Positions 23,836 through 57,328 of a stretch of 58,452 nucleotides of DNA are shown one piece after another; within the stretch, counting starts at the first letter, position 1, and every line of letters starts with the position of its first letter. The notes beneath the pieces are model-generated. The model worked only from the letters and a program-made list of their open reading frames with translations, searched no databases and was not told the origin of the DNA. The stretch is from a virus, in IMG/VR virus record IMGVR_UViG_3300024430_000001, positions 1 to 58,452 of that record; one strand, given 5' to 3'. The translations under genes and the position numbers were made by a program.

Positions 23836-24120
23836 TCAGTCGGCGGCGGCGCGCTCGACCGTGGCGTACATACCGGTGTCGCCGAACTCCCAGTCTTCAG
23901 TGCGCGACCAGCCCTGCTCAGACAGGATTCGGTCTGCCGCTTCGCCAGCCGCTTCGGTGCCGTCCCGTCCAGGCACGCCGGTGTCGGCGTCGCCCATCGC
24001 CATCTCGCCCGTCATGTCCTGCCCTGTGCCGGACAGGTCGTCGGCCATCTCGTAGACGCCGACTTCGTAGGTCGCATCGGGGGCGATCTCGGTCAATATG
24101 GCTGCCTGGTGCATTTTCAT
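23836..24120 (-). CDS. Hypothetical acidic protein
   Basis: 94-aa, Asp/Glu/Met-rich protein (TYEVGVYEMADDLSGTGQDM, WSRTEDWEFGDTGMYATVE). No family recognised. GAGAGGAA precedes the ATG. First of several minus-strand genes punctuated by hairpins. Confidence 0.65.
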   Translation of the reverse strand: MKMHQAAILTEIAPDATYEVGVYEMADDLSGTGQDMTGEMAMGDADTGVPGRDGTEAAGEAADRILSEQGWSRTEDWEFGDTGMYATVERAAAD

Positions 24121-24146
24121 GGTCGGGTTCCTCTCGCGTTTGGGTG

Positions 24147-24180
24147 CGCCCCGTCCGGCTGTTGCGAGCCGGACGGGGCG
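24147..24180. terminator. 14-bp hairpin between minus-strand genes
   Basis: Perfect stem CGCCCCGTCCGGCT/AGCCGGACGGGGCG with a 6-nt loop. The T-run (ATTTTG) is on the plus-strand side although the flanking genes are read leftward. Confidence 0.6.
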
Positions 24181-24191
24181 ATTTTGTCATG

Positions 24192-24695
24192 TCAGCCGAT
24201 CGGGTTCGGCATCCACTTCATGCCCCACCACTCGTGGTGGTCGTCGGGGATGACGGTGCTGATGCCGTGCTGGCCGGGCATGTCCTGCCAGCCGTCGGCG
24301 AGCATGAGCTTTCGAGGGTGCTCGTACACCCACGATTCCGCCATCACGCCGAGTCTGGTGATGAGGGGCTGTGTCGTGTCGTGGACCAGCTCGTAGACGT
24401 CGGTGCCGATGTCGTCAAGCCGGTAGCCGCGGCGGACGTAGGCGTTACGCACCAGGATCACCACGCGAAGGCCGCCGATCTCGCCGTCCCAGCGGAGGGT
24501 GGGGCGCAGGAGACGCCATGCAGCCGGTGTGCCGTCGACGGTCGCGATGACCATCCAGTCGCCGGGACGGTCGTCGAGCCGGCTTTCAGCGTCACGCAGC
24601 ATGTCGTAGGCGAGACCGATGTCATCGCGTAGGGGGTCGACGAGTGCCCGGTAGCGGGGGTCGCCGTACTCCAGCGTCAGGGCTTCGATCTTCAA
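24192..24695 (-). CDS. Hypothetical protein, GNAT-like pattern
   Basis: 167-aa protein. The middle (GDWMVIATVDGTPAAWRLLR) and later VRRGYRLDDIGTDVYELV recall the strand layout of GNAT acetyltransferases, but no clear acetyl-CoA loop is seen, so this is tentative. TTG 24695 is chosen because GAGGGAG lies 6 nt upstream, the same leader as its operon neighbours; an ATG at 24743 would lie inside a hairpin. Confidence 0.6.
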   Translation of the reverse strand: MKIEALTLEYGDPRYRALVDPLRDDIGLAYDMLRDAESRLDDRPGDWMVIATVDGTPAAWRLLRPTLRWDGEIGGLRVVILVRNAYVRRGYRLDDIGTDVYELVHDTTQPLITRLGVMAESWVYEHPRKLMLADGWQDMPGQHGISTVIPDDHHEWWGMKWMPNPIG

Positions 24696-24719
24696 TGTGG
24701 CTCCCTCTATGGTTGGGGA

Positions 24720-24754
24720 GCCACCCCGAGGTGATACCAGCATCTCGGGGTGGC
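24720..24754. terminator. 11-bp hairpin between minus-strand genes
   Basis: GCCACCCCGAG/CTCGGGGTGGC with a 13-nt loop, between the 43-aa gene and the 167-aa gene. Punctuates the leftward transcript. Confidence 0.55.
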
Positions 24755-24760
24755 GTCTTA

Positions 24761-24892
24761 TTACTGGCCGGTCAGTTTCTTGAGCGTGCCGTCCGGCTGT
24801 CGCTCCCAGATGCCCGCCTCGGCCCGCTTGCGCGGCTCCTGCTGGGAGCCCTGGTGGTTGTCGCCGCTGGGTTTCTCGTCCTTCTTGGCCAT
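24761..24892 (-). CDS. 43-aa hypothetical protein
   Basis: Short polar protein (MAKKDEKPSGDNHQGSQQEP, then WERQPDGTLKKLTGQ). A GGGAGGG ribosome binding site sits 8 nt before the ATG, and the ending in DGTLKKL is a pattern seen in small actinophage proteins. Same operon as the genes on either side. Confidence 0.65.
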   Translation of the reverse strand: MAKKDEKPSGDNHQGSQQEPRKRAEAGIWERQPDGTLKKLTGQ

Positions 24893-24917
24893 GCCGGCCA
24901 CCCTCCCTGTGTCTTGG

Positions 24918-25235
24918 CTACTGCTGGTCGGGCTGCCGGATGGTCAGACCCCGCTGTACGAGCAGGTCGAGCACCTGCGCCGCGTGGGCTTCCGGGCTGA
25001 GGTCGCCTCGGTCGACGGCTTCGACCTCGGCGGCCATCTCGGGCGTGACCCCCGTGAGGATCAGCGGCCGGGCCTCGGCCGGGTAGTAGCCCAGGCTCGC
25101 CCACTGTGCGGCGACCTCCGGAGTGACCCGCGGGTCCATTCGGTACCAGTCCCCGCCGATGCGGGGCGTTGCGAGCTGTTCGGCCAGGCGGCAGTAGATC
25201 CGGACGTATGCCCAGGTCTCTTTGATGGCGTCCAT
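24918..25235 (-). CDS. Hypothetical protein, first gene of promoter copy A
   Basis: 105-aa mostly helical protein (IKETWAYVRIYCRLAEQLAT, PEAHAAQVLDLLVQRGLTIR). No family recognised. GAGGGAG lies before the ATG; the duplicated promoter at 25268-25336 drives it. Confidence 0.7.
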   Translation of the reverse strand: MDAIKETWAYVRIYCRLAEQLATPRIGGDWYRMDPRVTPEVAAQWASLGYYPAEARPLILTGVTPEMAAEVEAVDRGDLSPEAHAAQVLDLLVQRGLTIRQPDQQ

Positions 25236-25267
25236 TGGACTCCCTCTGTGTAGTTTTCAATCCCCCG

Positions 25268-25336
25268 TGCTTGTGCCTACAGCCTAACCCATCCTCCGTA
25301 ACATACGCAACATACATAAGTGTCAGCTAGGCGACA
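25268..25336 (-). repeat. 69-bp direct repeat, promoter copy A
   Basis: Identical over 69 bp to 26371-26439. Read leftward it holds -35 TTGCGT (25310-25305), an 18-bp spacer and -10 TAGGCT (25286-25281), plus upstream tandem GTATGTTGC/GTATGTTAC repeats and GCTGACACTTA. The stop codon of the gene at 25327-25803 lies inside it. Confidence 0.85.
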
Positions 25337-25803
25337 GAACGTGCGGAGCGGTCGTGCTTCGCAGCGATCCCCCACAGGTCGATCTCGCCGATGGCCTGCC
25401 GAATCTCCGGTACGGCAGCGTGCCATGCCTCCGTCCCGTCATACGGGCCGTAGATCATCTCGCCGTGGAGGGTGACCCCATCCGGCAGCACCGAAGCCAC
25501 GGCCTGCCGAAACTCCTCGACAACCGCGGCGACCTCAAAGCCGTCGTCGGTGATGCCAGCCAGAGCGACGTAGTCCTCCAGGTTATCTGAGCTATCGCCC
25601 ATGAGCAGGTGCCAGTTGCCGAACTCTGTGGTCGCTCCGGCGTCCGGGTCGACTGAGGGCGTCTCCTCCGGCTCGTAGGGGCTAACCAGCGCCACGGGCC
25701 GGCCGTAGTGGGTGATGACCACCTCGTCGCCGCGGATGATCGCGTTAAGCATGTCGCGCCACCCCCGCTGGATATCGGTCGACTTCATATCGATGCGGGC
25801 CAT
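25327..25803 (-). CDS. Phd/YefM-like antitoxin domain fused to an unknown domain
   Basis: 158-aa protein. Residues 5-45 (MKSTDIQRGWRDMLNAIIRG, then EVVITHYGRPVALVSPYE) match the DNA-binding N-domain of Phd/YefM antitoxins. The remaining 110 residues (NWHLLMGDSSDNLEDYVALA, VAAVVEEFRQAVASVLPDGV) are unlike the short toxin-binding tail of Phd and no toxin gene is adjacent. Probably a repressor or an orphan immunity-type protein. ATG 25803 is used because a hairpin separates it from the previous gene; GTG 25899 would overlap that gene by 4 nt. Confidence 0.65.
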   Translation of the reverse strand: MARIDMKSTDIQRGWRDMLNAIIRGDEVVITHYGRPVALVSPYEPEETPSVDPDAGATTEFGNWHLLMGDSSDNLEDYVALAGITDDGFEVAAVVEEFRQAVASVLPDGVTLHGEMIYGPYDGTEAWHAAVPEIRQAIGEIDLWGIAAKHDRSARSVA

Positions 25804-25847
25804 GATGTCTTGTCCTGTCTGCGAAATGGCGGTTATGGATTCCCCAC

Positions 25848-25888
25848 GCAGCCGCGTCGGGATCTCAGCTTCATCCCGACGCGGCTGC
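25848..25888. terminator. 16-bp perfect hairpin between minus-strand genes
   Basis: GCAGCCGCGTCGGGAT/ATCCCGACGCGGCTGC with a 9-nt loop, in the gap between the HTH protein and the Phd-like gene. No T-run on the leftward side. Confidence 0.65.
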
Positions 25889-25895
25889 ATTGTGA

Positions 25896-26354
25896 TCACA
25901 GCTGCTCGAATGCTTCCCCGAAGTACTCGCCGTCCGGCAGCAGCTCTTCGGAAGCACTAACCCGCACCCGGTCACCCACCTGCACGGGGCGCATCTCCGG
26001 TTTGTAAACCGCGCCGCCAAGATCCCCGATGACCGTGACCGTCTGGTCTCCGGCCTCGATTGTCAGCCGCGGCATGCTGCCGTACGGCCCCCGCTCCTGC
26101 GTGATGACCGCGACGGTGCCCTCGATCTGCCAGCGGATGTGGGTGGTCACGTGCTCGGTGCCGCGCCAATCTTTGCGGCGCGTCTTAATTTCCACCTGCT
26201 TGATCATTGCGTGCTCCTCGGCGGTGGGGAGGGAGGCGGGCTCGATGACCCATGCGCGACCGGCTTTAACGGCCTGGATGCGGCCGGTCCGACACCAGCG
26301 GCGAACGGTCGTGACGCTGACCTGGACTTTCTCGGCTGCCTGCGCGGTGTTCAT
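25896..26354 (-). CDS. HTH (excisionase/MerR-like) protein with C-terminal domain
   Basis: 152-aa protein. Residues 1-45 (NTAQAAEKVQVSVTTVRRWC, then GRIQAVKAGRAWVIEP) form the helix-turn-helix and wing of excisionase/MerR-type DNA-binding domains. Residues 70-152 are beta-rich (VAVITQERGPYGSMPRLTIE, VTVIGDLGGAVYKPEMRPVQ). ATG 26354 follows GAGGGAGG and is the first gene behind promoter copy B. Confidence 0.72.
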   Translation of the reverse strand: MNTAQAAEKVQVSVTTVRRWCRTGRIQAVKAGRAWVIEPASLPTAEEHAMIKQVEIKTRRKDWRGTEHVTTHIRWQIEGTVAVITQERGPYGSMPRLTIEAGDQTVTVIGDLGGAVYKPEMRPVQVGDRVRVSASEELLPDGEYFGEAFEQL

Positions 26355-26370
26355 CTGGACCTCCCTCTCT

Positions 26371-26439
26371 TGCTTGTGCCTACAGCCTAACCCATCCTCC
26401 GTAACATACGCAACATACATAAGTGTCAGCTAGGCGACA
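26371..26439 (-). repeat. 69-bp direct repeat, promoter copy B
   Basis: Second identical copy, 1,103 bp from copy A. Read leftward: -35 TTGCGT (26413-26408), 18-bp spacer, -10 TAGGCT (26389-26384). It drives the HTH and Phd-like genes. Confidence 0.85.
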
Positions 26440-26442
26440 TGA

Positions 26443-26532
26443 GCCGGAGATGCATCGCCGTCCAGTGACGAGGTCGCCGCGCTGCTCCTGCGTCAGGGCA
26501 TGCACGGCGACCTCATCGACGCTGAGGACTAA
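26443..26532 (+). pseudogene. Remnant of a plus-strand coding frame
   Basis: A 29-codon open stretch without a start, ending ALLLRQGMHGDLIDAED then TAA, directly after an in-frame TGA and just outside repeat copy B. It reads like the C-terminus of a gene but nothing upstream continues it. It may mark a past recombination at the repeat. Could also be chance. Confidence 0.3.
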
Positions 26533-26540
26533 GCGGCTGA

Positions 26541-26894
26541 CTAGTCGTTGAGCAGCGGCGCCCACGCCTGCCGCAACGCGCCAAGGATCCGCGGCCCGCG
26601 CAGCCACTCCAGCACCTCGCGTTCCTGCCGGTAGTCGATGGGGCACTGGTAGCAGATTCGGCGGCTGGACGTCAGGAGAAAGACGTTGAACACCTGCTCG
26701 TCCCGATCCTCCCCTGCCATAAAGAAGCCGTCGTGGAGCGGGTGGGTGGCGTCGTACCACTCCCAGGCGTATACCTGGTTGAGCGTTGGCGCAAGGGCGT
26801 CTATCCGTGACCTGAGATCGGCGAAGCTCGCGCAGCGGTTCAGATTTTCCGAGTCGTCAGCCACAATCGGCCGACTCACTTCCCACAGATGCAC
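26541..26894 (-). CDS. Hypothetical protein, third gene of the PNK-like operon
   Basis: 117-aa protein (SENLNRCASFADLRSRIDAL, VYAWEWYDATHPLHDGFFMA, then SSRRICYQCPIDYRQEREVL). No family recognised. GTG 26894 follows AGAGAGG by 8 nt; GTG 26912, overlapping the previous stop, is the alternative. Acts in the same leftward operon as the kinase-like gene. Confidence 0.6.
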   Translation of the reverse strand: MHLWEVSRPIVADDSENLNRCASFADLRSRIDALAPTLNQVYAWEWYDATHPLHDGFFMAGEDRDEQVFNVFLLTSSRRICYQCPIDYRQEREVLEWLRGPRILGALRQAWAPLLND

Positions 26895-26908
26895 CGGCTC
26901 ATCCTCTC

Positions 26909-27448
26909 TCACGTCGCGTCTGACCACAGGTCGGTCAAGGCCGCGTCGATGTCCTCGTCGGGGTGACTGGCGGTCGGCTCCGCTGGGGCTTCCTCGACGG
27001 CGGGCCGGTCGCCGGTCGGCGGGGGTCCGACCGCCTGGCGGCGCCGGTGCGCCCGCTGCTGCTTGCCGATCGCGTCAGCAGTCACCCCGTAGCCCAGTAC
27101 CGACAGCCGGTCGGCGATCTCCTGCTGGGTCGCCTCCCCCCATGCCGGATGGCAGAGCAGCCGTCCGATGTAGTCGGTGGCCTGGCGGGCGTACTGCTCG
27201 GCGGCCGCCCTTCGGCGAGCAACCTCGGCGATCCGCTGGGGGATCGGCAGCAGCATCAGATCAAGGTCGTCGACCGAACCGGCAGGCAGGAGGCTGCCGA
27301 CCGGGGGCAGGAAGATGAGGAGGCGATCCGGCTCGTCGGTCGCCTCCGCGCCGCCGTCAGCCGACTGGAGGTCGCCCGCTGTCTCCGGGAGCACCGACTC
27401 GTGGTCGGCGTCCAGCTCGGCGAGGGTGCGGTCCGTGGTCGCGGTCAT
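26909..27448 (-). CDS. Hypothetical protein with C-terminal HTH-like helices
   Basis: 179-aa protein. Acidic N-terminus (about 1-55), a helical middle (MLLPIPQRIAEVARRRAAAE), then an HTH-like TQQEIADRLSVLGYGVTADA before a basic segment QQRAHRRRQ. The acidic C-terminus ends ALTDLWSDAT. ATG overlaps the kinase-like gene's stop by 4 nt, so the two are translated together. Confidence 0.65.
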   Translation of the reverse strand: MTATTDRTLAELDADHESVLPETAGDLQSADGGAEATDEPDRLLIFLPPVGSLLPAGSVDDLDLMLLPIPQRIAEVARRRAAAEQYARQATDYIGRLLCHPAWGEATQQEIADRLSVLGYGVTADAIGKQQRAHRRRQAVGPPPTGDRPAVEEAPAEPTASHPDEDIDAALTDLWSDAT

Positions 27449-28095
27449 CGCGGGCTGGCTTCGGCTTGGTGTTCCGCCCACATCTGCCGGATGCGGTCGG
27501 CGCCGACCGGCTCGGGCCGGGCGTCGTCGGGTGCGGGCTGGGATCGGGCGAGGTCGCGGGCGATGCAGATCTCGATCGGCACGTCGAGCAAGCTGACGAT
27601 CTCCAGGCGAGCGCCGGCCGTGGCCGCTAGTGCGACCGCTTCCGCGACCCGCTCGGCGGTCAGATGAGTGTCGTCCATGATCACGTCGTAGCCGTGAGAC
27701 AGCAGCGCAGATACTGCCGCGTGCTGGATCACGCTCACCATCGCCTCAGCGTCGACATCGCCATGCGGCCACGGACCACGCCGCAGCATGGCCCGGATGT
27801 CATCCCTGTTGACGCGGGCACGCCGCGCCGGGTCGGTGGCCACCCAGGCTCGTGCCCAGGTGCTCTTGCCGGATCCAGGCAGACCGCGGGTGATGACGAG
27901 GGTGGGCGCGAACCGGTCGAGCAGTGCGCCGCGCTCCCGGTCGGACAGCTCGGCGCTGTAGGTCAGCATGCGCAGCGCGTCGCGGGCGTCGGCCAGGGTC
28001 ACCGCGCCCAGGGCACGCAGCGCAGCCTCAGCCTCGTCGATGAGCGGGTGGCCGGCCCACAGGCGCGGATCGTCGCGATAGGTGGGGTCGATCAT
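27445..28095 (-). CDS. Polynucleotide kinase-like P-loop protein
   Basis: 216-aa protein. Residues 66-200 match the 5'-kinase domain of T4 Pnk-type/AAA_33 enzymes: Walker A GLPGSGKST (71-79), ARVNRDDIRAML (94-104) and IMDDTHLTAERV (139-150). Such kinases phosphorylate 5'-OH ends of RNA or DNA, sometimes as part of tRNA repair. No phosphatase domain follows. The helical N-terminal 60 residues are extra. It heads a three-gene leftward operon. Confidence 0.82.
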   Translation of the reverse strand: MIDPTYRDDPRLWAGHPLIDEAEAALRALGAVTLADARDALRMLTYSAELSDRERGALLDRFAPTLVITRGLPGSGKSTWARAWVATDPARRARVNRDDIRAMLRRGPWPHGDVDAEAMVSVIQHAAVSALLSHGYDVIMDDTHLTAERVAEAVALAATAGARLEIVSLLDVPIEICIARDLARSQPAPDDARPEPVGADRIRQMWAEHQAEASPR

Positions 28096-28119
28096 GGCGG
28101 TCTCCTCTACGGTGTAGGG

Positions 28120-28150
28120 GAGACCGGGCTACTACGGGTGGCCCGGTCTC
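28120..28150. terminator. 10-bp hairpin upstream of the PNK-like operon
   Basis: GAGACCGGGC/GCCCGGTCTC with an 11-nt loop, followed on the plus side by TCTCTATG. It separates the 93-aa gene from the kinase-like gene on the leftward transcript. Confidence 0.55.
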
Positions 28151-28160
28151 TCTATGTCGG

Positions 28161-28442
28161 TCAGGCGCACTCGGTGCGCAGCTCGGGCAGCCAGCCGATC
28201 ACGTGGTCGTTGGCCTCGACGATCAGGCTCAGGACCGCGTCGAGTGCGTCCGCCCGTGCCGGTCCGGTGAACGAGCCGTCGGCGTAGGCCCAGCCGGGTA
28301 ACCGCTGGGCGGTGTTGTTGACGAGCCAGGCGTACACGGCGTCGGCTGCGGCGCGGGCGACGGTCGGGGTCTCGTCATCGGCGAATCCGCGGGCGGTTTC
28401 CGTGAGGGTCCATTCCGGGTCGGTCAGGGTCATCTTCGTCAT
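28161..28442 (-). CDS. Hypothetical protein under triple-dyad control
   Basis: 93-aa protein (ARAAADAVYAWLVNNTAQRL, ADALDAVLSLIVEANDHVIG), mostly helical, no recognised family. The ATG lies 11 nt from the nearest dyad and has no clear ribosome binding site. Divergent from the HTH gene at 28548. Confidence 0.65.
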   Translation of the reverse strand: MTKMTLTDPEWTLTETARGFADDETPTVARAAADAVYAWLVNNTAQRLPGWAYADGSFTGPARADALDAVLSLIVEANDHVIGWLPELRTECA

Positions 28443-28452
28443 GGTTTTAGTT

Positions 28453-28537
28453 TACGGCAGAAGTGCCGTATAAACCAAGAAGCTTACGGCGGAATCGCTG
28501 TAAACTTGCTGACACTTAATACGGCGGGAGTGCCGTA
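28453..28537. promoter_or_regulatory. Three 18-bp dyad operators between divergent genes
   Basis: TACGGC-AGAAGT-GCCGTA (28453-28470), TACGGC-GGAATC-GCTGTA (28485-28502), TACGGC-GGGAGT-GCCGTA (28520-28537). Centres are 32 and 35 bp apart, about three helical turns each. The outer two touch AT-rich -10-like boxes (TTATAC leftward, TATAGT rightward). Confidence 0.82.
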
Positions 28538-28547
28538 TAGTGGGGGT

Positions 28548-28790
28548 ATGGCAGAACGACTCGGCAACAACGCCGCAGCCGCCCACCTCGGCATACGGCC
28601 GTCCACGTGGCGCGACTACGTCGCAGACGGCCGCGCTCCTGCCCCTGACGGCATCGACGAAGGCTTCGGCAAGCCGTACTGGCTCAAGAGCAGCCTGGAC
28701 AAATGGCAGGCGTCGCGCCCCGGCCGCGGCCGCCGTCGAATAGGAGGCCACTTGGCGGATAGCGCCGAGGTACGGGCGGAGCTTCAGTAG
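28548..28790 (+). CDS. Small HTH DNA-binding protein
   Basis: 80-aa protein. GNNAAAAHLGIRPSTWRDYV is a helix-turn-helix of the AlpA/excisionase kind, followed by WLKSSLDKWQASRPGRGRRR. Likely binds the dyads at 28453-28537 and controls its own gene and the divergent one (inference). GGGGG precedes the ATG. Confidence 0.72.
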   Translation: MAERLGNNAAAAHLGIRPSTWRDYVADGRAPAPDGIDEGFGKPYWLKSSLDKWQASRPGRGRRRIGGHLADSAEVRAELQ

Positions 28791-28956
28791 CATGGACTCG
28801 TGATCGAATGGGAACTGCCGCACCATCGTGACATTAATTGTCGTTGATCCGACAGTGGCATGTACCTGCTCGTGATGAGATGACTGCCTTATGTCACTAG
28901 CCGCAAACGAGGAACCCGTGCGACGGTAACCTCAGGAAAGAAAGGGCGTTTAGCCA

Positions 28957-29181
28957 TTGCCACGCCCGCGTCACAGATACGGCGAATACGAGCAGTTGCT
29001 CACAGCACTGGAGAGTAAGAGGTGGCTGGTAGACGGAGGTGGAGATAGGCACTTTCGACTGAGGTGCCCCTGCCCGCGGCGATGTATGTTGGTCGTTTCG
29101 ACGACACCAAGATCGCGATCCGGCACCTTTCAGATCGTGAAACGGCAACTCCGCAAGCAAACGTGTTGGAAGGAGGACTGA
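28957..29181 (+). CDS. HicA-like putative toxin
   Basis: 74-aa basic protein. YEQLLTALESKRWLVDGGGD followed by RHFRLRCPCPRRCMLVVSTT and a C-terminal basic helix fits the small double-stranded-RNA-binding fold of HicA/YcfA proteins, with the His in DRHFR at the expected catalytic place. HicA toxins cut mRNA. The start is TTG with GGAAAGAAAGGG upstream. Its stop overlaps the next start by 1 nt. The 166-nt gap before it holds no other gene. Confidence 0.55.
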   Translation: MPRPRHRYGEYEQLLTALESKRWLVDGGGDRHFRLRCPCPRRCMLVVSTTPRSRSGTFQIVKRQLRKQTCWKED

Positions 29182-29495
29182 TGAACGACTATCTCATCTC
29201 TGTCGAGATGTGGTTTGTTGGCCCGGCCGAGAGCACGGAGGACGACTTCGAGGCGTTCCTGAACCAGGTGCTAGCGCAACTGGAGAACATCGAACGCGAG
29301 GTCACGCTCGCCGCCCGCCTACGCGAAAAGATGGCCGACTTCGGCACAGTTGCCGAAGGTGAGACCTTCGACGAGGCACTAGCCAGCTATCTGATCGACC
29401 TGAGAACCGCGCTTCACGCCGCCGGCGCTAACACGCAGGGGTGGCCGCAGTTCGTGGTCAAAGATCAGAAGGCTCACGAACTCCAATCGGCTTAG
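29181..29495 (+). CDS. Partner of the HicA-like protein
   Basis: 104-aa acidic protein (LISVEMWFVGPAESTEDDFE, FLNQVLAQLENIEREVTLAA, LRTALHAAGANTQGWPQF). It does not look like HicB, which starts with a partial RNase H fold. Size, charge and a translational coupling TGATG with an AAGGAGG site suit a neutralising partner. A strong terminator follows, so the pair forms its own unit. Confidence 0.55.
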   Translation: MNDYLISVEMWFVGPAESTEDDFEAFLNQVLAQLENIEREVTLAARLREKMADFGTVAEGETFDEALASYLIDLRTALHAAGANTQGWPQFVVKDQKAHELQSA

Positions 29496-29510
29496 CCCCC
29501 CTCAATGACT

Positions 29511-29540
29511 AAAGCCCCCGCCGAGTGCGGGGGCTTTTTT
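29511..29540 (+). terminator. Strong intrinsic terminator
   Basis: AAAGCCCCCGC/GCGGGGGCTTT with a 5-nt loop and T6 tail. Best rho-independent terminator in the window; ends the HicA-like pair. Confidence 0.92.
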
Positions 29541-29565
29541 CGCGTTCACCTCGCGCGGACGGGAG

Positions 29566-29748
29566 TCAGCCCCGCTGCCGCTTCGCCAGATACGCCGACC
29601 ACCGCTGTGTGCACACCTCACACCACACGGCTGGCCTGGTCCGCAGTGTCACATCCTGCGCATCGGCGGGGATCGGGATACCGCACTGGGTGTGGTCACC
29701 AGCGCCGGTCTCGTGGTCGGCGATATGCCGGACGTAGGGCTCGGTCAC
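29566..29748 (-). CDS. Small zinc-binding-like protein
   Basis: 60-aa protein with HTQCGIP and AVWCEVCTQRW, a His/Cys pattern common in short actinophage proteins (possible zinc site). GTG with GGGAGGAG 5 nt upstream; overlaps the gene before it by 4 nt. Confidence 0.65.
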   Translation of the reverse strand: MTEPYVRHIADHETGAGDHTQCGIPIPADAQDVTLRTRPAVWCEVCTQRWSAYLAKRQRG

Positions 29749-29897
29749 CGCTGCTCCTCCCGCAGCCAGGCCAGCAGCCGCTGGCACACCTCGTCGGAGT
29801 CATCCCACCTGCGACGCAAGGCCGAATCGCACAGCAGCCGCTCGGCCTCTGCCGCCCCAGGGTGGCGTGGGGTGAGGACCAGCTCGATGACGGTCAC
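29745..29897 (-). CDS. 50-aa hypothetical protein
   Basis: Helical protein (AEAERLLCDSALRRRWDDSD, CQRLLAWLREEQR). GTG with GGAGG 5 nt upstream. Both its ends overlap neighbours by 4 nt (GTGA), the pattern of genuine genes in this phage. Confidence 0.65.
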   Translation of the reverse strand: MTVIELVLTPRHPGAAEAERLLCDSALRRRWDDSDEVCQRLLAWLREEQR

Positions 29898-30070
29898 CAC
29901 TGCCTCCGCCTGATCGCCGCGGTCGCCTCGTCGATGCGCCGGCCCAGCGGCTCCCCGTCAGCACGCGGGCGTAGCCGCGGTCGGCGGCGGGTGGCCCGGT
30001 AGCGCGTGTGGCAGATGACCGTCAGCAGCGTCACCACAGCCAGAGCTAGCAGTCCTAGGGCTACATCCAT
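29894..30070 (-). CDS. 58-aa single-pass membrane protein
   Basis: Starts with a hydrophobic helix (VALGLLALAVVTLLTVI, residues 3-19), then a basic tail (RYRATRRRPRLRPR). First gene of a three-gene leftward operon. GAGGTGTGGC precedes the ATG. Function unknown. Confidence 0.65.
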   Translation of the reverse strand: MDVALGLLALAVVTLLTVICHTRYRATRRRPRLRPRADGEPLGRRIDEATAAIRRRQW

Positions 30071-30210
30071 GCCACACCTCGGTGGAGGGAGATGGTGCCG
30101 GGGATGCGGCGACTAGAGTGAGAGTGCGCGCGACCCGGCACGCGATGGGTTTCGAGCCAGGGGCCGAGTGGCCCGTCTCGATGTCTAACGCTCATTCAAG
30201 CCGATAGGTA

Positions 30211-30271
30211 GCGGAACACTCCACCACTGTTCCGCTGGAACACTTTGTGTACCGGACACTGCGGGTACCCT
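30211..30271 (+). promoter_or_regulatory. Operator and leaderless promoter of the first GntR gene
   Basis: Inverted repeat GCGGAACA/TGTTCCGC (30211-30218, 30228-30235) and a further GGAACACT (30237-30244). -10-like TACCCT (30266-30271) ends 6 nt before the ATG, so the mRNA is probably leaderless. Confidence 0.6.
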
Positions 30272-30277
30272 GGCGGT

Positions 30278-31024
30278 ATGGCCGAGCCTGCATTTCGCCT
30301 GATCGCGGACTCGATCCGCGCGGACATCACCGCCCGCCGCCTCGTCGAAGGCGACCGGCTGCCCACCGTCCGCGACCTGGCCGCCCGCTACGAGGTCCCG
30401 ATCGGGACAGTCACGCGCGCACTCGATCTGCTCCGCGCTGAAGGCGTGATCGTCTCCCATCACGGCCGCGGCCTCTACGTCCGCTCGTTCGCCCGGATCG
30501 TCCGCTCCTCACCAGGCCGGCTCGCCAAATCCCACTGGGGCGCAGGACATGCCATCCAGGACGCCGACACTGGCGACCGGGTCCGGGTCGTGCACGTCGA
30601 GGTCAGCGAGGTCCCCGCCCCGCCGTGGGCCGCCGAGGCGTTCGCACTGCCCGAGGGTGTGAGTGTGCTGGCCCGCGTCCGCAGGTTCGCCGTGGACGAC
30701 CGGATCGTGCAGCTGGCCACCTCCTACCTGCCACTGGCCGTCGTCCACACCGTGCCCTCCGTCGCCTACACCGGACCAGGACCAGGCGGGATTTACGCAC
30801 GCATGGCCGAGGCGGGACTGGAGCCGGTCAGGTTCCGGGAGCGCATCCGCAGCCGTACGCCCACTTCCGACGAGGCGACGATGCTGGCCCTGCCGACCGG
30901 GGTTGCCGTGCACGAGATCACCCGCTGGGCGTGGACACACGACGGGCAGTGTGTGGAGGTCAACCGCATGATTCTCGATGCGTCGGCCTACGACCTGGAG
31001 TATCTGTTCAGCTCGGAGGGCTGA
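30278..31024 (+). CDS. GntR-family regulator (HutC/UTRA type)
   Basis: 248-aa protein. Residues 8-72 form the winged helix (AEGDRLPTVRDLAARYEVP-type; PIGTVTRALDLLRAEGVIV; HHGRGLYVR). Residues 80-245 form a UTRA ligand domain (LPEGVSVLARVRRFAVDDRI; EVNRMILDASAYDLEYLF). The family includes KorSA-like repressors of actinobacterial conjugative elements. Probably autoregulated through the GGAACA repeats. Ligand unknown. Confidence 0.87.
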   Translation: MAEPAFRLIADSIRADITARRLVEGDRLPTVRDLAARYEVPIGTVTRALDLLRAEGVIVSHHGRGLYVRSFARIVRSSPGRLAKSHWGAGHAIQDADTGDRVRVVHVEVSEVPAPPWAAEAFALPEGVSVLARVRRFAVDDRIVQLATSYLPLAVVHTVPSVAYTGPGPGGIYARMAEAGLEPVRFRERIRSRTPTSDEATMLALPTGVAVHEITRWAWTHDGQCVEVNRMILDASAYDLEYLFSSEG

Positions 31025-31124
31025 TCGGTACCCGCCGCGCATCCTTCGTTAGAGCGCGGCGGGCCGGGCTGCCGGGTGTCTGTGCGGAGATCCCCTGATC
31101 GGCATGCCACCATCCACCATAAGC

Positions 31125-31185
31125 TGTCCAGTCCTGTCTAGTTGATGAACTGGTGTGAACAGAACTGGACATGTCTGATAACTGG
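31125..31185 (+). promoter_or_regulatory. Operator region of the second GntR gene
   Basis: TGTCCAGT (31125-31132) with its complement ACTGGACA (31164-31171), and three AACTGG copies (31148, 31163, 31180) 15 and 17 bp apart. Lies in the 181-nt gap between the two GntR genes. Confidence 0.6.
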
Positions 31186-31205
31186 CGCGGTGCCATCCTG
31201 GCACG

Positions 31206-31511
31206 GTGGATCGCTGGTCACGGACGACAGTGCGGGACCAGATAGCCGCCGACCTGCGCCGACGCATCGCCGACGGGGAGTGGCCCGAAGACCGGCGCAT
31301 GCCGGGTGAGGTGGCGTTATCCCAGGAGTACGAGGTGGCTCGGGGAACCATCCGGGAGGCGCTGGCCGTACTGCGCGAGGAAGGTCTCATTGAGACCGAC
31401 CGGGGCCGCGGATCATGGGTGGTACGACCGGTCAAGCGCCCAGCAGAACCGCCGCGGCGGGCCAGCCCGGACAGCTGGCGCACCTCGCCGTTCCAGCCGC
31501 CGCCCGGATGA
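31206..31511 (+). CDS. Short GntR winged-helix regulator
   Basis: 101-aa protein: only a winged helix (TVRDQIAADLRRRIADGEWP, MPGEVALSQEYEVARGTIRE, DRGRGSWVV) and a Pro-rich tail, without a ligand domain. GTG start. Probably a plain DNA-binding repressor of a nearby promoter. No ribosome binding site is obvious. Confidence 0.78.
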   Translation: MDRWSRTTVRDQIAADLRRRIADGEWPEDRRMPGEVALSQEYEVARGTIREALAVLREEGLIETDRGRGSWVVRPVKRPAEPPRRASPDSWRTSPFQPPPG

Positions 31512-31545
31512 ATGTGCCAACGTTCCGGGTGAATGTGCCAATGTT
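31509..31545 (+). repeat. Two 16-bp direct repeats, 21-bp period
   Basis: TGAATGTGCCAACGTT (31509-31524) and TGAATGTGCCAATGTT (31530-31545), one mismatch, two helical turns apart. The first overlaps the stop of the short GntR gene. Likely a protein binding site. Confidence 0.7.
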
Positions 31546-31901
31546 GAGGAATCAACCGTACGGCCGATTCTCCCTAACTGTTAGCTACCCGTGCAATTTG
31601 CGGCGTGCTTTTGCATGACAGTTGCGGCCCGATTGACCGGATGGGCGCGCTCCCATGGGGGCGGAAATGCGGCCCGGCATCTTATGCCCGACCGGCCATG
31701 GTTAGTCAAGACCAAGAATGTTGACCAATATTCGCGGCCGTGAATAGACCATTCATGTTAGGTCTTGATGACCCCTTGTCAACAGGAGTACCTTCACATT
31801 CTCCCTGGTGAGGCTGGTGCGAGACCCACCGGGGAGACACACCCAGCGGACGGCATCCGCGACAGCCGCCCTCACCGCCCCATGCGCCCGAGGAGGCACC
31901 C
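31546..31901 (+). promoter_or_regulatory. Gene-free region with inverted repeats and a promoter
   Basis: About 356 nt more AT-rich than its surroundings and without a gene I can support. TCAAGACC near 31708 and GGTCTTGA near 31761 form an inverted repeat; ATTC/GAAT arms flank GCGGCCGT between them. TTGATG then TACCTT about 18 bp on gives a candidate promoter (about 31764-31793) for the genes to the right. Confidence 0.45.
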
Positions 31902-32012
31902 ATGACCCTGCCCGCCCATCTCCGAAGCCGCTGGCGCCGCATCGCCGCCCGCATCGACGCCTGGATGCTCGACGCAGCCGGAATCACCCTCAGCCGCCAC
32001 CCACGACACTAA
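31902..32012 (+). CDS. 36-aa hypothetical protein
   Basis: Short Arg-rich protein (MTLPAHLRSRWRRIAARIDA, then WMLDAAGITLSRH). AGGAGG lies 6 nt before the ATG, the main reason for calling it. A hairpin follows the stop. Confidence 0.55.
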   Translation: MTLPAHLRSRWRRIAARIDAWMLDAAGITLSRHPRH

Positions 32013-32019
32013 CCACGCT

Positions 32020-32041
32020 CGTGCGGCCCTCCCGCCGCACG
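32020..32041 (+). terminator. Small hairpin after the 36-aa gene
   Basis: CGTGCGGC/GCCGCACG with a 6-nt loop, no T-run. The following 195 nt (32042-32237) are very GC-rich, Pro/Ala-coding in any frame, and hold no gene I can support. Confidence 0.45.
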
Positions 32042-32237
32042 CCCGCAACGCCGCGGGCAACACCCATCCCCGGCCCGGCGCCGCCTCCGCCACGGCGCCC
32101 GGCCCACCCCGCATCACACCGCCCGGACGCCGCCACGCCGGACGCCGCCCCCGGGCGGCAAGCACCACCCGGACGCAGCCATGAGCCGACGCTGCGCCCG
32201 GCACATCGGGGGACAGCACAACCGAAAGGACACCCCA

Positions 32238-32822
32238 GTGACTGAGCAACGAGAACCCTCACCGTCACCTGCCAAACCGAAGCCTTACCGCGCCTGCGCC
32301 CGCACCGCCGCCGCCCTGGCCTCCATCGGCCTGGCCCTCGCCATCGCAGGTGCCCTCCTCGCGGCCCGCGCCGGTCAAGGCATCGGTGCCGGTGCCTCCC
32401 TGACGGCCTCCCGGATGGGCTTCGGCATGGCTGTCATCGGCAGCGTCTGGCTGGTGCTCGTCCACCTCCGACGCCAGTTCCGCGAGCAGGAGCAGCTGCG
32501 GGCCGAAGATCACAAGCTGCTGGTGAGGATGGCTGCGGATATCGCGGCCCTCAAAAGTCGCGTGGACTCGGCAGGATCTCATGCAACAGTGGCAGCCCCG
32601 GCCGGACAGTCTCAATCGCCGCAGACCGGCCGCGGGCGCCGGCGCAAAGGGAAGGCCAATCAGCAGACGGACGCGGCCCAGGTGACCACCCCTGCGGCGG
32701 TGAACGGCTTCCGTACCTTGCAGCACGGACGAGATGACGCCTGGCTTGACGACATGTCCGAAGCGTTCCGGCTCGGACGCGAGGCCGAGCGGCGGCGAGG
32801 GCAGCGTCCGGCTGGCGAATGA
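32238..32822 (+). CDS. Membrane protein with coiled coil
   Basis: 194-aa protein. Two hydrophobic helices (ALASIGLALAIAGALLAA, about 26-43; MGFGMAVIGSVWLVLV, about 60-75), then a coiled coil (REQEQLRAEDHKLLVRMAAD) and a polar basic tail. Layout recalls spread (Spd) proteins of actinobacterial conjugative elements, but sequence alone does not prove it. GTG 32238 has AAGGA 8 nt upstream; ATG 32181 is an alternative. Confidence 0.65.
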   Translation: MTEQREPSPSPAKPKPYRACARTAAALASIGLALAIAGALLAARAGQGIGAGASLTASRMGFGMAVIGSVWLVLVHLRRQFREQEQLRAEDHKLLVRMAADIAALKSRVDSAGSHATVAAPAGQSQSPQTGRGRRRKGKANQQTDAAQVTTPAAVNGFRTLQHGRDDAWLDDMSEAFRLGREAERRRGQRPAGE

Positions 32823-32830
32823 AAGGCTGG

Positions 32831-32867
32831 CGGGTGCCCCTGGGGTCAGACAGGGGCACCCGTCTCG
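32831..32867. terminator. Bidirectional terminator between convergent genes
   Basis: 12-bp stem CGGGTGCCCCTG/CAGGGGCACCCG with an 8-nt loop followed by TCTCG. Separates the membrane gene (+) and the integrase gene (-). Confidence 0.75.
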
Positions 32868-32869
32868 CG

Positions 32870-33844
32870 TTATATTCCGCCCATCACGTCGACGCGATCG
32901 TAAGCCCTTCGTGCCCGCGCAGACCGCGCCGATCGACCATAGCGGCGCAGCATTTGAGGCGAATCCCACCCATTCAGCTCCATAAGATCACCTTCCGCGC
33001 CGCCAGCATCCAGCCAGCGGTGCGTGAAGGTATGGCGAAATTGATGAGGGTAGATTTTTAAGCCGATGCGCTTGCCCCGGCTTTCGATGGCTTGATAGAC
33101 GCCGCTCGGTGTGAGGGGACCTTTGGTGCCGAGCCACAGCCGGGAGGTGAACCGACCCGCCCTGTGGGTCGCTCTGGAACGCAGGTATCGGTCAAGGGCC
33201 TGGGCGCATTTGGCATCGAATTTGATGATGCGCTGCTTGCCGGCTTTTCCGGTGACCAGGAGTTCGAAGTTCCTCAAGTTCAAGTCATCTACTTCCAGGA
33301 CGGCCACCTCGGCGAGACGAGCTCCGCTGCACGCGTAGAGCCGTATCAGCGCAGCGTCGCGGCGGGACGAGAAATCTCGTCCCTTCTCGCAATCCTGGAC
33401 GAGGCGGGCAAGATCTTCACTTGCGATGACCGGCACGACTTTGTCGTCAATCGAGGGCGGCGACATCGACGCCAACGGGCTGGTCGTTTCCTCCTCGGCC
33501 GCATACCATTTCCAAAACTGTTGCAAGGCCCGATATTGATTGTTGGCATAGCCTTTTTCGTACGGACGCCCCTTCGGGCAGGGGGTCCGGGGATGACTGC
33601 GCGGCTTGCCACATCCGCAGCGCGTGCCACCTTCTTGAAACCAGGCCATGTAGAGCTCAAGGTGGCGTTTGCTGACGCTCGCCCAGTCGGCCACGTCTTG
33701 ATCGATAAGCCACCATGCGAGCTTCGCTGCGGCATCGGTGTAGGTGCGGCGCGTCTTGGGACTACGTCCCTTGGCGCGGAGCGAAAGCTCGAAGGATTCG
33801 ATCCATACCTGAAAGCTGGGGGGAAGATCTTCGTCAGGTCTCAT
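32870..33844 (-). CDS. Tyrosine-type integrase
   Basis: 324-aa site-specific recombinase. N-terminal SAM-like core-binding domain (about 8-120) contains a Cys insert TRCGCGKPRSHPRTPC. Catalytic residues fit the family: Arg176 (SGARLAEVAVLE), Lys200, His267 and Arg270 (YPHQFRHTF), Trp293 and Tyr302 (RRYGRS). It would recombine attP with the host tRNA-Thr. ATG 33844 follows GAGAGGA; ATG 33883 has no ribosome binding site. It lies next to attP, as is usual. Confidence 0.93.
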   Translation of the reverse strand: MRPDEDLPPSFQVWIESFELSLRAKGRSPKTRRTYTDAAAKLAWWLIDQDVADWASVSKRHLELYMAWFQEGGTRCGCGKPRSHPRTPCPKGRPYEKGYANNQYRALQQFWKWYAAEEETTSPLASMSPPSIDDKVVPVIASEDLARLVQDCEKGRDFSSRRDAALIRLYACSGARLAEVAVLEVDDLNLRNFELLVTGKAGKQRIIKFDAKCAQALDRYLRSRATHRAGRFTSRLWLGTKGPLTPSGVYQAIESRGKRIGLKIYPHQFRHTFTHRWLDAGGAEGDLMELNGWDSPQMLRRYGRSARSARARRAYDRVDVMGGI

Positions 33845-33859
33845 ATCTAGGCGGATCCT

Positions 33860-34011
33860 CTCTGACCGGTGTGCGATGGACATGCCGCATCGCTGCGGCG
33901 GTGTCGTTCCTGGTCAGAGGAACTTTGAGCCCAGTATCGGACTCGAACCGATAACCTTCCGCTTACAAGGCGGATGGGGCTCAACGGTATGCGATTCCTG
34001 CATCTGACCGG
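33860..34011. repeat. TCTGACC repeats around attP
   Basis: TCTGACCGG occurs at 33861-33869 and 34003-34011, and CTCTGACC (33860-33867) has its complement GGTCAGAG at 33912-33919. The three copies bracket the attP core and are candidate integrase arm-type sites. Confidence 0.5.
33927..33975 (-). other. attP core, 3' part of a tRNA-Thr(UGU)
   Basis: Read leftward: anticodon stem-loop CCGC-CTTGTAA-GCGG, variable bases, T arm ATCGG-TTCGAGT-CCGAT and acceptor strand ACTGGGC then TC. No D arm or 5' acceptor strand precedes it, so it is not a whole tRNA. Integration here would rebuild the host tRNA-Thr gene. It sits 83 bp upstream of the integrase start. Confidence 0.88.
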
Positions 34012-47920: not shown

Positions 47921-48105
47921 TGACGATCTGCGACCTCTGCCCCGGCTCGGCGATCTGGCTCCTGGAAGCGCAGACCCCGGACGGCTCCGGCATGACCGCC
48001 GTCGCCTGCCACCGCGACGTGGACATCGCCCGCGCGCTGCTGGCCCGGCTTGGGCCGCCCACTGTCACCCCACTCGACGAATCCATGATCCCGGAGGGAC
48101 GATGA
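47920..48105 (+). CDS. Small Cys hypothetical protein
   Basis: 61-aa protein (TICDLCPGSAIWLLEAQTPD, MTAVACHRDVDIARALLARL) with CxxC and CH. Typical companion between organizer and helicase genes. Function unknown. Confidence 0.65.
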   Translation: MTICDLCPGSAIWLLEAQTPDGSGMTAVACHRDVDIARALLARLGPPTVTPLDESMIPEGR

Positions 48106-49415
48106 CCACCCGCGTTCCACCCCATGACCTCGGCGCGGAGCAATGCGTCCTCGGCGCGATGATGCTCAGCCCTGTAGCTGCCACCCGCGCGGCCGAGCTG
48201 CTACGGCCGGAGGACTTCTACCGTCCGGCGCACAGCATCGTGTTCGCCGCGATCGCCGCCGCGTCGGAGGCCCGGGAGCCGATCGACGCTACCGCGGTCG
48301 CCTCGCGGCTGGACGCCTCCGGCGAGCTGGCCCGCGTCGGCGGCGCCCCGTACCTGCACGAGCTGATTGCCATGGTGCCCACTGCCGCATCGGTCGGCTG
48401 GTACGCCCAGATCGTCGCCGGCCGGTCCAGCCTGCGCCGCCTCATCGAAGCCGGCACCCAGATCGCCCACCTCGGCTATGAACTGGAACGCGACCCGGGA
48501 GACGCCGCGGTGATCGCCGGCAAGCTCCTGGCCGATGCCACCCAAACCCGCACCCGCGGCGACATGCTGACGCTGGCCGACATCATCCCGGGCGGCCTCG
48601 ACGCCATCGAGCGCGCTGGCAACGGCGCGAACACCCCGAGCATCCACACCGGCATCACCGACCTCGATGACACCACTGGCGGCCTGAGGGAAGGCCAGCT
48701 CGTTGTGATCGCCGGACGTCCGGGCATGGGCAAATCCATCCTCGGCGTCGAGCTCGCCCGCAGAACCGCCCTACTGAGCAACCGCCCGGCCGCGATCTTC
48801 TCGCTGGAGATGTCCCGCAACGAAGTCTTCAACCGGCTCATCTCCGCCCACGCCGGCATCCCCCTGGCCGCCATCACCATGGGCCAGCTGTCCCAGCGCG
48901 ACTGGGACACCGTCTCTGCGGTCAGCGGACGCATATCCCACGCCCCGCTCTACATCGACGACTCCGCCCCGCTGAGCCTGCCCGACATCGTGTCCCGCGC
49001 CCGCCGCGCACACGCCCGCACCCCGCTGGCGCTAGTCGTCGTCGACTACCTCCAGCTGATGACCATGGGCCGCAAGGTCGAGAACCGACAGCAGGAGGTG
49101 GCCGAGATCAGCCGCGGGCTCAAGTTGTTGGCCAAGGAGCTCGGCTGCCCCGTCGTCGCCGCCGCCCAACTGAACCGGCTCTCCGAGCAGCGCGCCGACA
49201 AGCGCCCACACCTGGCCGACCTGCGCGAATCCGGCGCGGTAGAGCAGGATGCCGACATCGTGATCCTGCTCTACCGGGAGCAGTACTACAACGCGAAGAC
49301 TCCGCGTGGCAACGAGATCGATCTGATCTTAGCCAAGCACCGCAATGGCCCCACCGGCGTCGTCGTCGCCCATGCCGACTTCGAGCACGCCCGGCTGAAG
49401 AACAAGACGCCGTGA
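48102..49415 (+). CDS. Replicative DNA helicase (DnaB-like)
   Basis: 437-aa hexameric 5'-3' helicase. N-domain starts PPHDLGAEQCVLGAMMLSP. Walker A GRPGMGKS at 205-212, Walker B VVVDYLQLM near 310, and the arginine-finger region RESGAVEQDADIVILLYRE at the end. Full length for the family. It unwinds DNA at the phage fork. Overlaps its neighbours by 4 nt and 1 nt. Confidence 0.95.
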   Translation: MTTRVPPHDLGAEQCVLGAMMLSPVAATRAAELLRPEDFYRPAHSIVFAAIAAASEAREPIDATAVASRLDASGELARVGGAPYLHELIAMVPTAASVGWYAQIVAGRSSLRRLIEAGTQIAHLGYELERDPGDAAVIAGKLLADATQTRTRGDMLTLADIIPGGLDAIERAGNGANTPSIHTGITDLDDTTGGLREGQLVVIAGRPGMGKSILGVELARRTALLSNRPAAIFSLEMSRNEVFNRLISAHAGIPLAAITMGQLSQRDWDTVSAVSGRISHAPLYIDDSAPLSLPDIVSRARRAHARTPLALVVVDYLQLMTMGRKVENRQQEVAEISRGLKLLAKELGCPVVAAAQLNRLSEQRADKRPHLADLRESGAVEQDADIVILLYREQYYNAKTPRGNEIDLILAKHRNGPTGVVVAHADFEHARLKNKTP

Positions 49416-51073
49416 TGAGCGCCCTCGGCGGGTTCATCTGGTCGGTCGGCGAGGTGCTGCGCGGCTTCTACCGGCCGAACCAGTACGGCAATGTGGTCCT
49501 GCCGTTCACGATCCTGCGCCGCCTCGACTGCACCCTCGGCCACAACGCGTTCGCCGAGCTGTTGGCTGGCGGCGACGGCCTGGCCGACAGGCTGACCGGC
49601 TACCTCGACCGGCTCCCGCCTGAGGTCGACGTGTTCCAGTATTTCGACTTCAACAAGGAGATCGCCGCGCTGGAGAAGGCGTGCCTGCTGCGCCAGGTCG
49701 TCACCGCCTTCAGCAGTGTCGACCTGCATCCGGACGTCGTGTCCAATGCCGACATGGGCGATGCGTTCGAGTACATCATCCGCAAGTTCAACGAGGCCGC
49801 GAACGAAACCTCCGGTGACCACTACACGCCGCGGGACGCGATCCGGCTGCTCGTCGACCTGCTGTTTGCCGGCGAGGATCTGGCCGAGCCAGGTACCCGC
49901 ACGGTCTACGACCCGACCGCAGGCACGGGCGGCATGCTGGCCCTGGCCGAGGAACATCTGCACGCACATAAGCCTGGCGTGAGGCTGAGCCTGTACGGGC
50001 AGGAGTTCAACCCCCAGTCCTATGCGATCTGCAAATCGGATCTGCTGGTCAAAGGCCACGACCCGTCCAACATCGCCTTCGGCAACACGCTGACCGACGA
50101 CGCGTTCAAGGGCCGCCGATTCGACTTCTGCATGTCCAATCCGCCGTACGGCGTCGACTGGAAGCAATACGCCAAGGCCATCACCGCCGAACGCGACTCC
50201 GCCGGTCCCTACGGACGGTTCGCCCCTGGCCTCCCGGCGACCTCCGACGGGCAGATGCTGTTCCTGCTCCACCTGGTCGCGAAGATGCGAGCACCGGAGG
50301 ACGGCGGCGGCCGTGCCGGGATCGTGATGAACGGCTCGCCGCTGTTCAACGGCGCCGCCGAGTCTGGGCCCTCCAACATCCGCAAGTGGCTCCTGGAGAA
50401 CGACCTGGTCGACGCGATAGTCGCGCTGCCGACCGGCATGTTCTTCAACACGGCCATTGCGACGTACCTCTGGGTCCTCGACAACGCCAAGCACCCTGAC
50501 CGCAGAGGCCTGGTCCAGCTCATCGATGGCACGTCGTTCTGGACCAAGATGCGCAAGAACCTCGGCTCCAAGGGTCGCGAGATCAGCGACACCGACCGCG
50601 CCAAGATCCTCCGGCTGTACGACGACTTCACCGACGCCGACCCGGACTGCTCCAAGATCCTGCGCACCGACGAGTTCGGCTACTGGACCATCACCGTTGA
50701 ACGCCCCCTCGTCGACGAGTCCGGCAACCCTGTCGTCGACCGCAACGGCAAGCCCAAGCCGGACCCGAAGGAGCGCGACACCGAGAACGTCCCGTTCACC
50801 TACGGCGGCTCGGCCGTCGGCGCAGCCGGCAAGGACGAGGTCATCCAGGCGTACTTCGACGCCGAGGTGAAGCCCCACGTCCCCGACGCCTGGATCGACT
50901 GGACCAAGACCAAGACCGGCTACGAGATCCCCTTCACTCGCCACTTCTACAAGTACATCCCACCCCGCCCTCTCGCCGAAATCGACGCCGACCTGGAGAA
51001 GCAGGTCACCGTCGTGCTTGACCTGCTGCGGGAGATGGCCCCTGACCGCCCTCCCGCCCTCCTCGAAGACTGA
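49415..51073 (+). CDS. Orphan type I-like N6-adenine methyltransferase (HsdM)
   Basis: 552-aa protein. Residues 1-150 are the HsdM N-domain (FIWSVGEVLRGFYRPNQYGN, VVLPFTILRRLD). Cofactor motif DPTAGTGGM at 166-174 and catalytic NPPYG at 242-246. No HsdS or HsdR gene is adjacent, so sequence recognition must come from elsewhere or from its own C-terminal half (about 420-520, unusual Asp/Lys-rich segment NPVVDRNGKPKPDPKERDTE). Probably protects phage DNA. GTG 49412 is the alternative start. Confidence 0.87.
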   Translation: MSALGGFIWSVGEVLRGFYRPNQYGNVVLPFTILRRLDCTLGHNAFAELLAGGDGLADRLTGYLDRLPPEVDVFQYFDFNKEIAALEKACLLRQVVTAFSSVDLHPDVVSNADMGDAFEYIIRKFNEAANETSGDHYTPRDAIRLLVDLLFAGEDLAEPGTRTVYDPTAGTGGMLALAEEHLHAHKPGVRLSLYGQEFNPQSYAICKSDLLVKGHDPSNIAFGNTLTDDAFKGRRFDFCMSNPPYGVDWKQYAKAITAERDSAGPYGRFAPGLPATSDGQMLFLLHLVAKMRAPEDGGGRAGIVMNGSPLFNGAAESGPSNIRKWLLENDLVDAIVALPTGMFFNTAIATYLWVLDNAKHPDRRGLVQLIDGTSFWTKMRKNLGSKGREISDTDRAKILRLYDDFTDADPDCSKILRTDEFGYWTITVERPLVDESGNPVVDRNGKPKPDPKERDTENVPFTYGGSAVGAAGKDEVIQAYFDAEVKPHVPDAWIDWTKTKTGYEIPFTRHFYKYIPPRPLAEIDADLEKQVTVVLDLLREMAPDRPPALLED

Positions 51074-57028: not shown

Positions 57029-57256
57029 ATGTACGACCTGGACGCCCGAATCACCCCCGCCCAAGCCGCCCGCCTGCTCGACCTCTCCCGGCAGCTGATC
57101 AAAGACTGGTACGACCGTGGCCGCCTGAAGCGTGGCGAAGACGGCCTAGTCCGATTGGGCGACGTGCTTAAGATCGAAGCTGAGACCCGCAACAACCGCC
57201 GCCGCGGCACCTTCGGACGTGGCGGCACCAGAAACTTACAGCTCGTAGCGGTGTAG
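57029..57256 (+). CDS. Small HTH protein
   Basis: 75-aa protein, MYDLDARITPAQAARLLDLS then RQLIKDWYDRGRLKRGEDGL, an HTH of the excisionase/AlpA kind, with a basic tail (RNNRRRGTFGRGGTRN). ATG with GGGGGTGAGC upstream. Its stop lies 10 nt inside the tRNA gene. Confidence 0.7.
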   Translation: MYDLDARITPAQAARLLDLSRQLIKDWYDRGRLKRGEDGLVRLGDVLKIEAETRNNRRRGTFGRGGTRNLQLVAV

Positions 57257-57321
57257 AGGAGCGGGTCGTCCTCGCGGGCCTCATAAGTCCGAGATCGCCG
57301 GTTCGAATCCGGCCACCGCAA
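57247..57321 (+). tRNA. tRNA-Met (anticodon CAU)
   Basis: Acceptor AGCGGTG pairs with CACCGCA except position 1 (A-A). D arm GAGG/CCTC with a 10-nt loop, anticodon arm CGGGC-CTCATAA-GTCCG (CAU at 57282-57284), T arm GCCGG-TTCGAAT-CCGGC. CCA is not encoded. A mismatch at the acceptor end is a mark of initiator tRNA, but lysidine-modified tRNA-Ile is also possible. Confidence 0.85.
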
Positions 57322-57328
57322 CTCAAAG

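Follow-up and report, generated by a model that had tools for sequence, protein, structure and literature searches.

The polynucleotide kinase-like protein encoded at the head of three coupled genes at 26541-28095 raises the question of what a nucleic acid 5' kinase might do in a phage record that holds neither the phosphatase nor the RNA ligase of such repair systems. We analysed the locus within its window, the 58,452 bases that make up the whole IMG/VR virus entry IMGVR_UViG_3300024430_000001. The genes of this record include terminase, capsid E, amidase, KilAC antirepressor, tyrosine integrase, GntR, DnaB and HsdM methylase, and by this gene content it is a temperate tailed phage; the contig is that of an actinophage. 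Terminases related to its own in viral contigs are at most 76% identical, and a DNA-level search with positions 24000-34000 found no close phage. The 11 phage records related by terminase or integrase lack the kinase, and several of them are clearly fragments, so a comparison with empty sites was dropped. The answer that we consider fairly likely is that the first gene encodes a kinase-only enzyme of the T4 Pnk lineage, which carries an added N-terminal module and would heal 5' ends, with the host finishing the repair.

Operon layout and control region

An earlier interpretation made from the letters of the DNA alone (the sequence-only reading) placed a three-gene operon at 26541-28095 and described its genes as coupled; these coordinates are correct, the strand is minus, and the coupling consists of stop-start overlaps at both junctions. 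The kinase gene (27445..28095, 216 aa) comprises a 64-residue N-terminal module followed by a T4-Pnk-type kinase domain without a phosphatase domain, and has a ribosome-binding-like site, GAGGAG, ahead of its start. Its stop overlaps the start of ORF2 (26909..27448, minus strand, 179 aa) in ATGA, and the stop of ORF2 overlaps the likely GTG start of ORF3 (26541..26912, minus strand, 123 aa) in GTGA. Because of these overlaps, ORF2 most likely starts at 27448 rather than 27481, and ORF3 most likely at the GTG at 26912 rather than at 26927. All three genes have a G+C content typical of coding sequence at codon positions 1/2/3, with values of 0.76/0.53/0.84 for the kinase gene, 0.78/0.52/0.88 for ORF2 and 0.67/0.42/0.82 for ORF3. 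This codon-position bias and the overlaps are what identify ORF2 as a gene; the kinase and ORF3 have homologues in addition.

A small orphan gene of 93 aa (28161..28442, minus strand), which has coding bias and is without a match in Pfam, PHROGs or NCBIfam, ends 65 bp upstream of the kinase gene on the same strand and may be in the same transcript, possibly as its first gene. Between this gene and the kinase start there is a strong hairpin (28120..28150, minus strand; -26.6 kcal/mol for a 67-nt region, z -4.0) that lacks a U-tract. Further upstream are three operator-like palindromes, TACGGC-N6-GCCGTA, that start at 28453, 28485 and 28520 (28453..28537), two of them perfect and one with a single mismatch. 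Matches to this pattern number 14 across the window against 3.0 expected, and perfect copies occur only in 28453..28537. The three palindromes sit in a divergent region adjoining a small HTH-like gene (28548..28790, plus strand; 80 aa from the ATG at 28548) whose product matches PHROG 597, DNA-binding protein (2e-13), and HTH_17 at a score under the curated cut-off (2e-4). This gene is a candidate regulator, and together with the palindromes it looks like a regulated control region; a sigma-70 promoter scan found no site. On the other side of the operon, a perfect direct repeat of 69 bp (25268-25336 and 26371-26439) is promoter-like (CTGACA ... TGTTAC), and one copy lies before each of two leftward genes.

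The kinase domain and the missing phosphatase

The motifs GLPGSGKST, NRDD and DDTH are all present in the first gene product, and its interpretation as a nucleic acid 5' kinase was upheld by profiles, by a sequence match in the PDB and by predicted fold, each pointing to the T4 Pnk type. The profile matches are to Pfam AAA_33 (5e-20, 72.6 bits) and to PHROG 505, polynucleotide kinase (3e-29), and among solved structures the closest in sequence is T4 Pnk (PDB search, 3e-8). An AlphaFold2 model computed with eight input sequences has a mean pLDDT of 79.6; values exceed 90 over most of the kinase core and are near 60 in the N-terminal module. A Foldseek search with this model returned T4 Pnk at the top (2ia5, 3e-8; 1ly1, TM 0.79 on the target). 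The T4 residues K15, S16, D35, R38, D85, R122 and R126, which we take to be essential for kinase activity, align in all seven cases with the same residues in the phage kinase, namely K77, S78, D98, R101, D142, R180 and R184; T4 N87 aligns with H144, and histidine is also found here in some full-length relatives. The phage kinase thus shares its P-loop kinase domain, catalytic and lid residues and predicted fold with T4 Pnk (PseT; PHROG 505) and with actinophage and actinobacterial relatives, at aligned identities of 25-27% to T4 and 45-54% to the actinobacterial relatives. By homology, the first gene product is predicted to be a T4-Pnk-type 5'-OH polynucleotide kinase. The NCBIfam equivalog cut-off for L-seryl-tRNA(Sec) kinase (PSTK) was missed (36.9 vs 290.5 bits).

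Unlike T4 Pnk, the phage kinase has no C-terminal HAD phosphatase and has an extra 64-residue N-terminal module, and no RNA ligase was found in its record. The protein ends just past the last kinase helix, so the phosphatase is cleanly missing. That no phosphatase is present, as the sequence-only reading had proposed, holds for this record as a whole: none was found fused, nearby or elsewhere, and positive controls worked. Twelve HAD queries each matched 42 fetched loci and gave nothing credible in the window, and neither did queries with a DNA ligase and a HAD_SAK-like protein. The capsid and KilAC proteins contain DxDG motifs, which were considered as signs of a hidden phosphatase and rejected, these proteins being unrelated to HAD enzymes. 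The same reading had seen no RNA ligase, and T4 RnlA and two phage RNA ligase queries likewise found nothing credible in the record, which as that of a virus may naturally be without genes of the host. The kinase domain is also related to that of the bacterial Pnkp1-Rnl-Hen1 RNA repair complex (4xrp, E 4.5e-8), but counterparts of Rnl and Hen1 are absent here, and ORF2 and ORF3 match no family.

At 45-54% identity, the closest relatives are with few exceptions kinase-HAD fusions of about 300-315 aa; they come from viral contigs, from phages and from genomes of Streptosporangiaceae and Micromonosporaceae. A tree places the phage kinase among these ordinary kinase-phosphatases, which points to an end-healing enzyme that has been trimmed and whose gap host enzymes may fill. 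Since the nearest sister is not resolved in this tree, we only infer that the kinase arose by losing the C-terminal HAD phosphatase, which is the simplest account. A bare kinase is unusual, because a survey of jumbo phages found the Pnk-type HAD phosphatase mostly fused to the kinase, and such enzymes tracking with ATP-grasp RNA ligases (PMC7824862), but it is not unprecedented. Kinase-only relatives recur on a Streptosporangium plasmid (L021) and in a genome from the order that includes Micromonosporaceae (L038), and less clearly in a third locus (L035). The plasmid and genome proteins are likewise Pnk-type kinases with no phosphatase fused to them, about 150-160 aa long, but they lack the N-terminal module that the phage kinase carries; in L038 a weak HAD_SAK_2-like gene lies two genes downstream of the kinase.

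Three arrangements were noted among the fetched loci. In L062:3451-5290 a kinase-only Pnk gene is followed, two genes on, by one whose product resembles HAD_SAK_2 with a score under the cut-off, so that kinase and phosphatase may be split here. In a viral contig (L009:5542-6411) a Pnk-type kinase is fused to an RNase HI domain, an unusual end-processing fusion. In phage ctuNt529 (L087:3072-4888) a putative nucleotidyltransferase precedes a Pnk gene that shares an overlap with the gene of an ATP-dependent DNA ligase, forming a compact end-repair cassette.

A Micromonosporaceae module at the kinase N-terminus

Residues 1-64 (27904..28095, minus strand) form a helical module that lies outside the Pnk fold, was absent from the sequence-only reading and is covered by no Pfam family. 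It is an uncharacterised domain common to otherwise unrelated small Micromonosporaceae proteins. The phage module is 58% identical to L064 over 53 residues (BLAST, E 2e-16) and 43-52% identical to five members, and it carries their signature PIID-AE--LRA ... EL--RE-A-L-RF (alignment A3). A profile built from six members matched in 10 of 111 Micromonosporaceae genomes; in a class-wide sample of 178 genomes it matched only in the centre genome, and a profile scan of viral contigs gave nothing. Members of the family (L064, L071, L074, L075, L078, L134, L138, L139 and others) usually stand alone or have other C-termini, several bearing paired cysteines, and none of the other members seen is fused to a kinase. 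Because module matches are so far confined to Micromonosporaceae proteins, a Micromonosporaceae host is suggested for the phage. The module may recruit the kinase to a host partner or aid its oligomerisation. An apparent match in the Actinoplanes phage phiAsp2 (E of 3) is not credible, and a link between the module and neighbouring GntR genes was rejected, as no more than 3 of 23 loci show it and some of the loci overlap.

Possible roles of the kinase

A kinase alone mends only the 5' end of a break, and ligation also needs 3' healing and a ligase. For activity, substrate, host dependence, module function and the direction of evolutionary change we propose the following. The ancestor was probably a kinase-phosphatase of an actinobacterium or a phage, from which the C-terminal HAD phosphatase was lost and to which the Micromonosporaceae module was added. 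The present kinase would most likely transfer the NTP gamma-phosphate to 5'-OH ends of RNA or DNA, healing breaks made by nucleases that leave such ends, with the module placing it on a host partner or aiding its oligomerisation. The 3'-end healing and the sealing are assumed to come from enzymes of the host. Genomes of the likely host order, which includes Micromonosporaceae, commonly encode a full-length Pnk, so 3' healing could come from the host. ORF2 and ORF3 would be co-translated accessory factors or passengers. The locus offers a clear example of a Pnk that lacks its phosphatase and carries an additional module restricted to one lineage, a variation on a known kind of enzyme, and it makes testable whether phages can lean on host enzymes to complete nucleic acid end repair.

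One specific version of this explanation, which we put forward tentatively, is counter-defence RNA repair as in T4, where the kinase would help restore tRNAs cut by host anticodon nucleases during infection, and host phosphatase and ligase would complete the repair. In T4 the cut tRNA is mended by Pnk and RnlA (T4 record annotation), related Pnk genes of the actinophages Alleb and LukeCage have RNA ligase genes nearby, and the present record encodes one tRNA-Met. Against this version, neither an RNA ligase nor a phosphatase was found in the record, Pnk tracks with ATP-grasp ligases in a surveyed set of jumbo phages (PMC7824862), and the kinase gene sits in a leftward accessory region.

The kinase might instead serve DNA, restoring 5' phosphates at breaks or nicks for the host DNA ligase, for example during phage DNA replication or recombination, a role that we regard as rather unlikely. 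Nuclease-made DNA breaks mostly carry 5' phosphates from the outset, and the kinase gene does not adjoin the replication genes of the window (DnaB at 48102). In favour of the role, DNA is a substrate of T4 Pnk and is present in crystals of the enzyme (1rc8, 1rrc, 1rpz), and in ctuNt529 a DNA ligase gene and the Pnk gene overlap.

The sequence-only reading had raised a different nucleic acid end system. In a distinct end-processing system of three proteins, the phosphatase, ligase or binding function that the kinase lacks would come from ORF2 or ORF3. The joining of all three genes by stop-start overlaps is what speaks for it, but neither ORF2 nor ORF3 matched an enzyme family, and searches of phages, plasmids, viral contigs and sampled genomes turned up the trio nowhere else. 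The only relative of ORF3 is WP_003958698.1 from Streptomyces clavuligerus plasmid pSCL3 (32% identity over 95%, E 1e-8), which shares the signatures HLWE, SFA-LR and WLRGP--LG; it is a solitary gene with no kinase found within 10 kb, whereas ORF3 lies in an operon with one. A profile scan of viral contigs with ORF3 gave nothing, and a structure search was dropped because the single-sequence model was too poor (pLDDT 52). ORF2 is an orphan; the weak matches (E 4e-4 to 0.01) that 22 genomes gave look compositional and were judged to be chance, and the HTH-like segment once noted in ORF2 was not backed by Pfam, PHROGs or NCBIfam. Because the ORF3 relative stands without a kinase and ORF2 is without relatives, the trio lacks support as a conserved system, and we find such a system doubtful. 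We give the same low weight to a broader alternative, in which a kinase-only Pnk steered by the module phosphorylates 5'-OH RNA fragments for decay by host 5'-monophosphate-dependent RNases rather than for resealing, or else forms a distinct end-processing system with ORF2 and ORF3.

It is very unlikely that the protein works as a toxin, being a P-loop kinase of the zeta-toxin-like or another small-molecule type, or that it is the product of a moron gene with no bearing on nucleic acid ends: its score passes the Pfam Zeta_toxin cut-off (29 vs 22.3 bits), and overproduced full-length Pnk of phage LeBron (306 aa) is mildly toxic to its host (PMC13148394), but AAA_33 (72.6 bits) and the Pnk profiles score far higher, the T4 substrate-binding residues are retained, Pnk comes first in the fold search, and PADLOC gave no match. 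No antitoxin partner was recognised.

Two other features of the record were observed. Among the genes scanned, neither HsdS nor HsdR was recognised to accompany the HsdM-like type I methyltransferase encoded at 49412-51073. The tRNA-Met (CAT) gene, at 57247-57322, lies close to the end of the record and could be phage-borne or the remnant of an attachment site.
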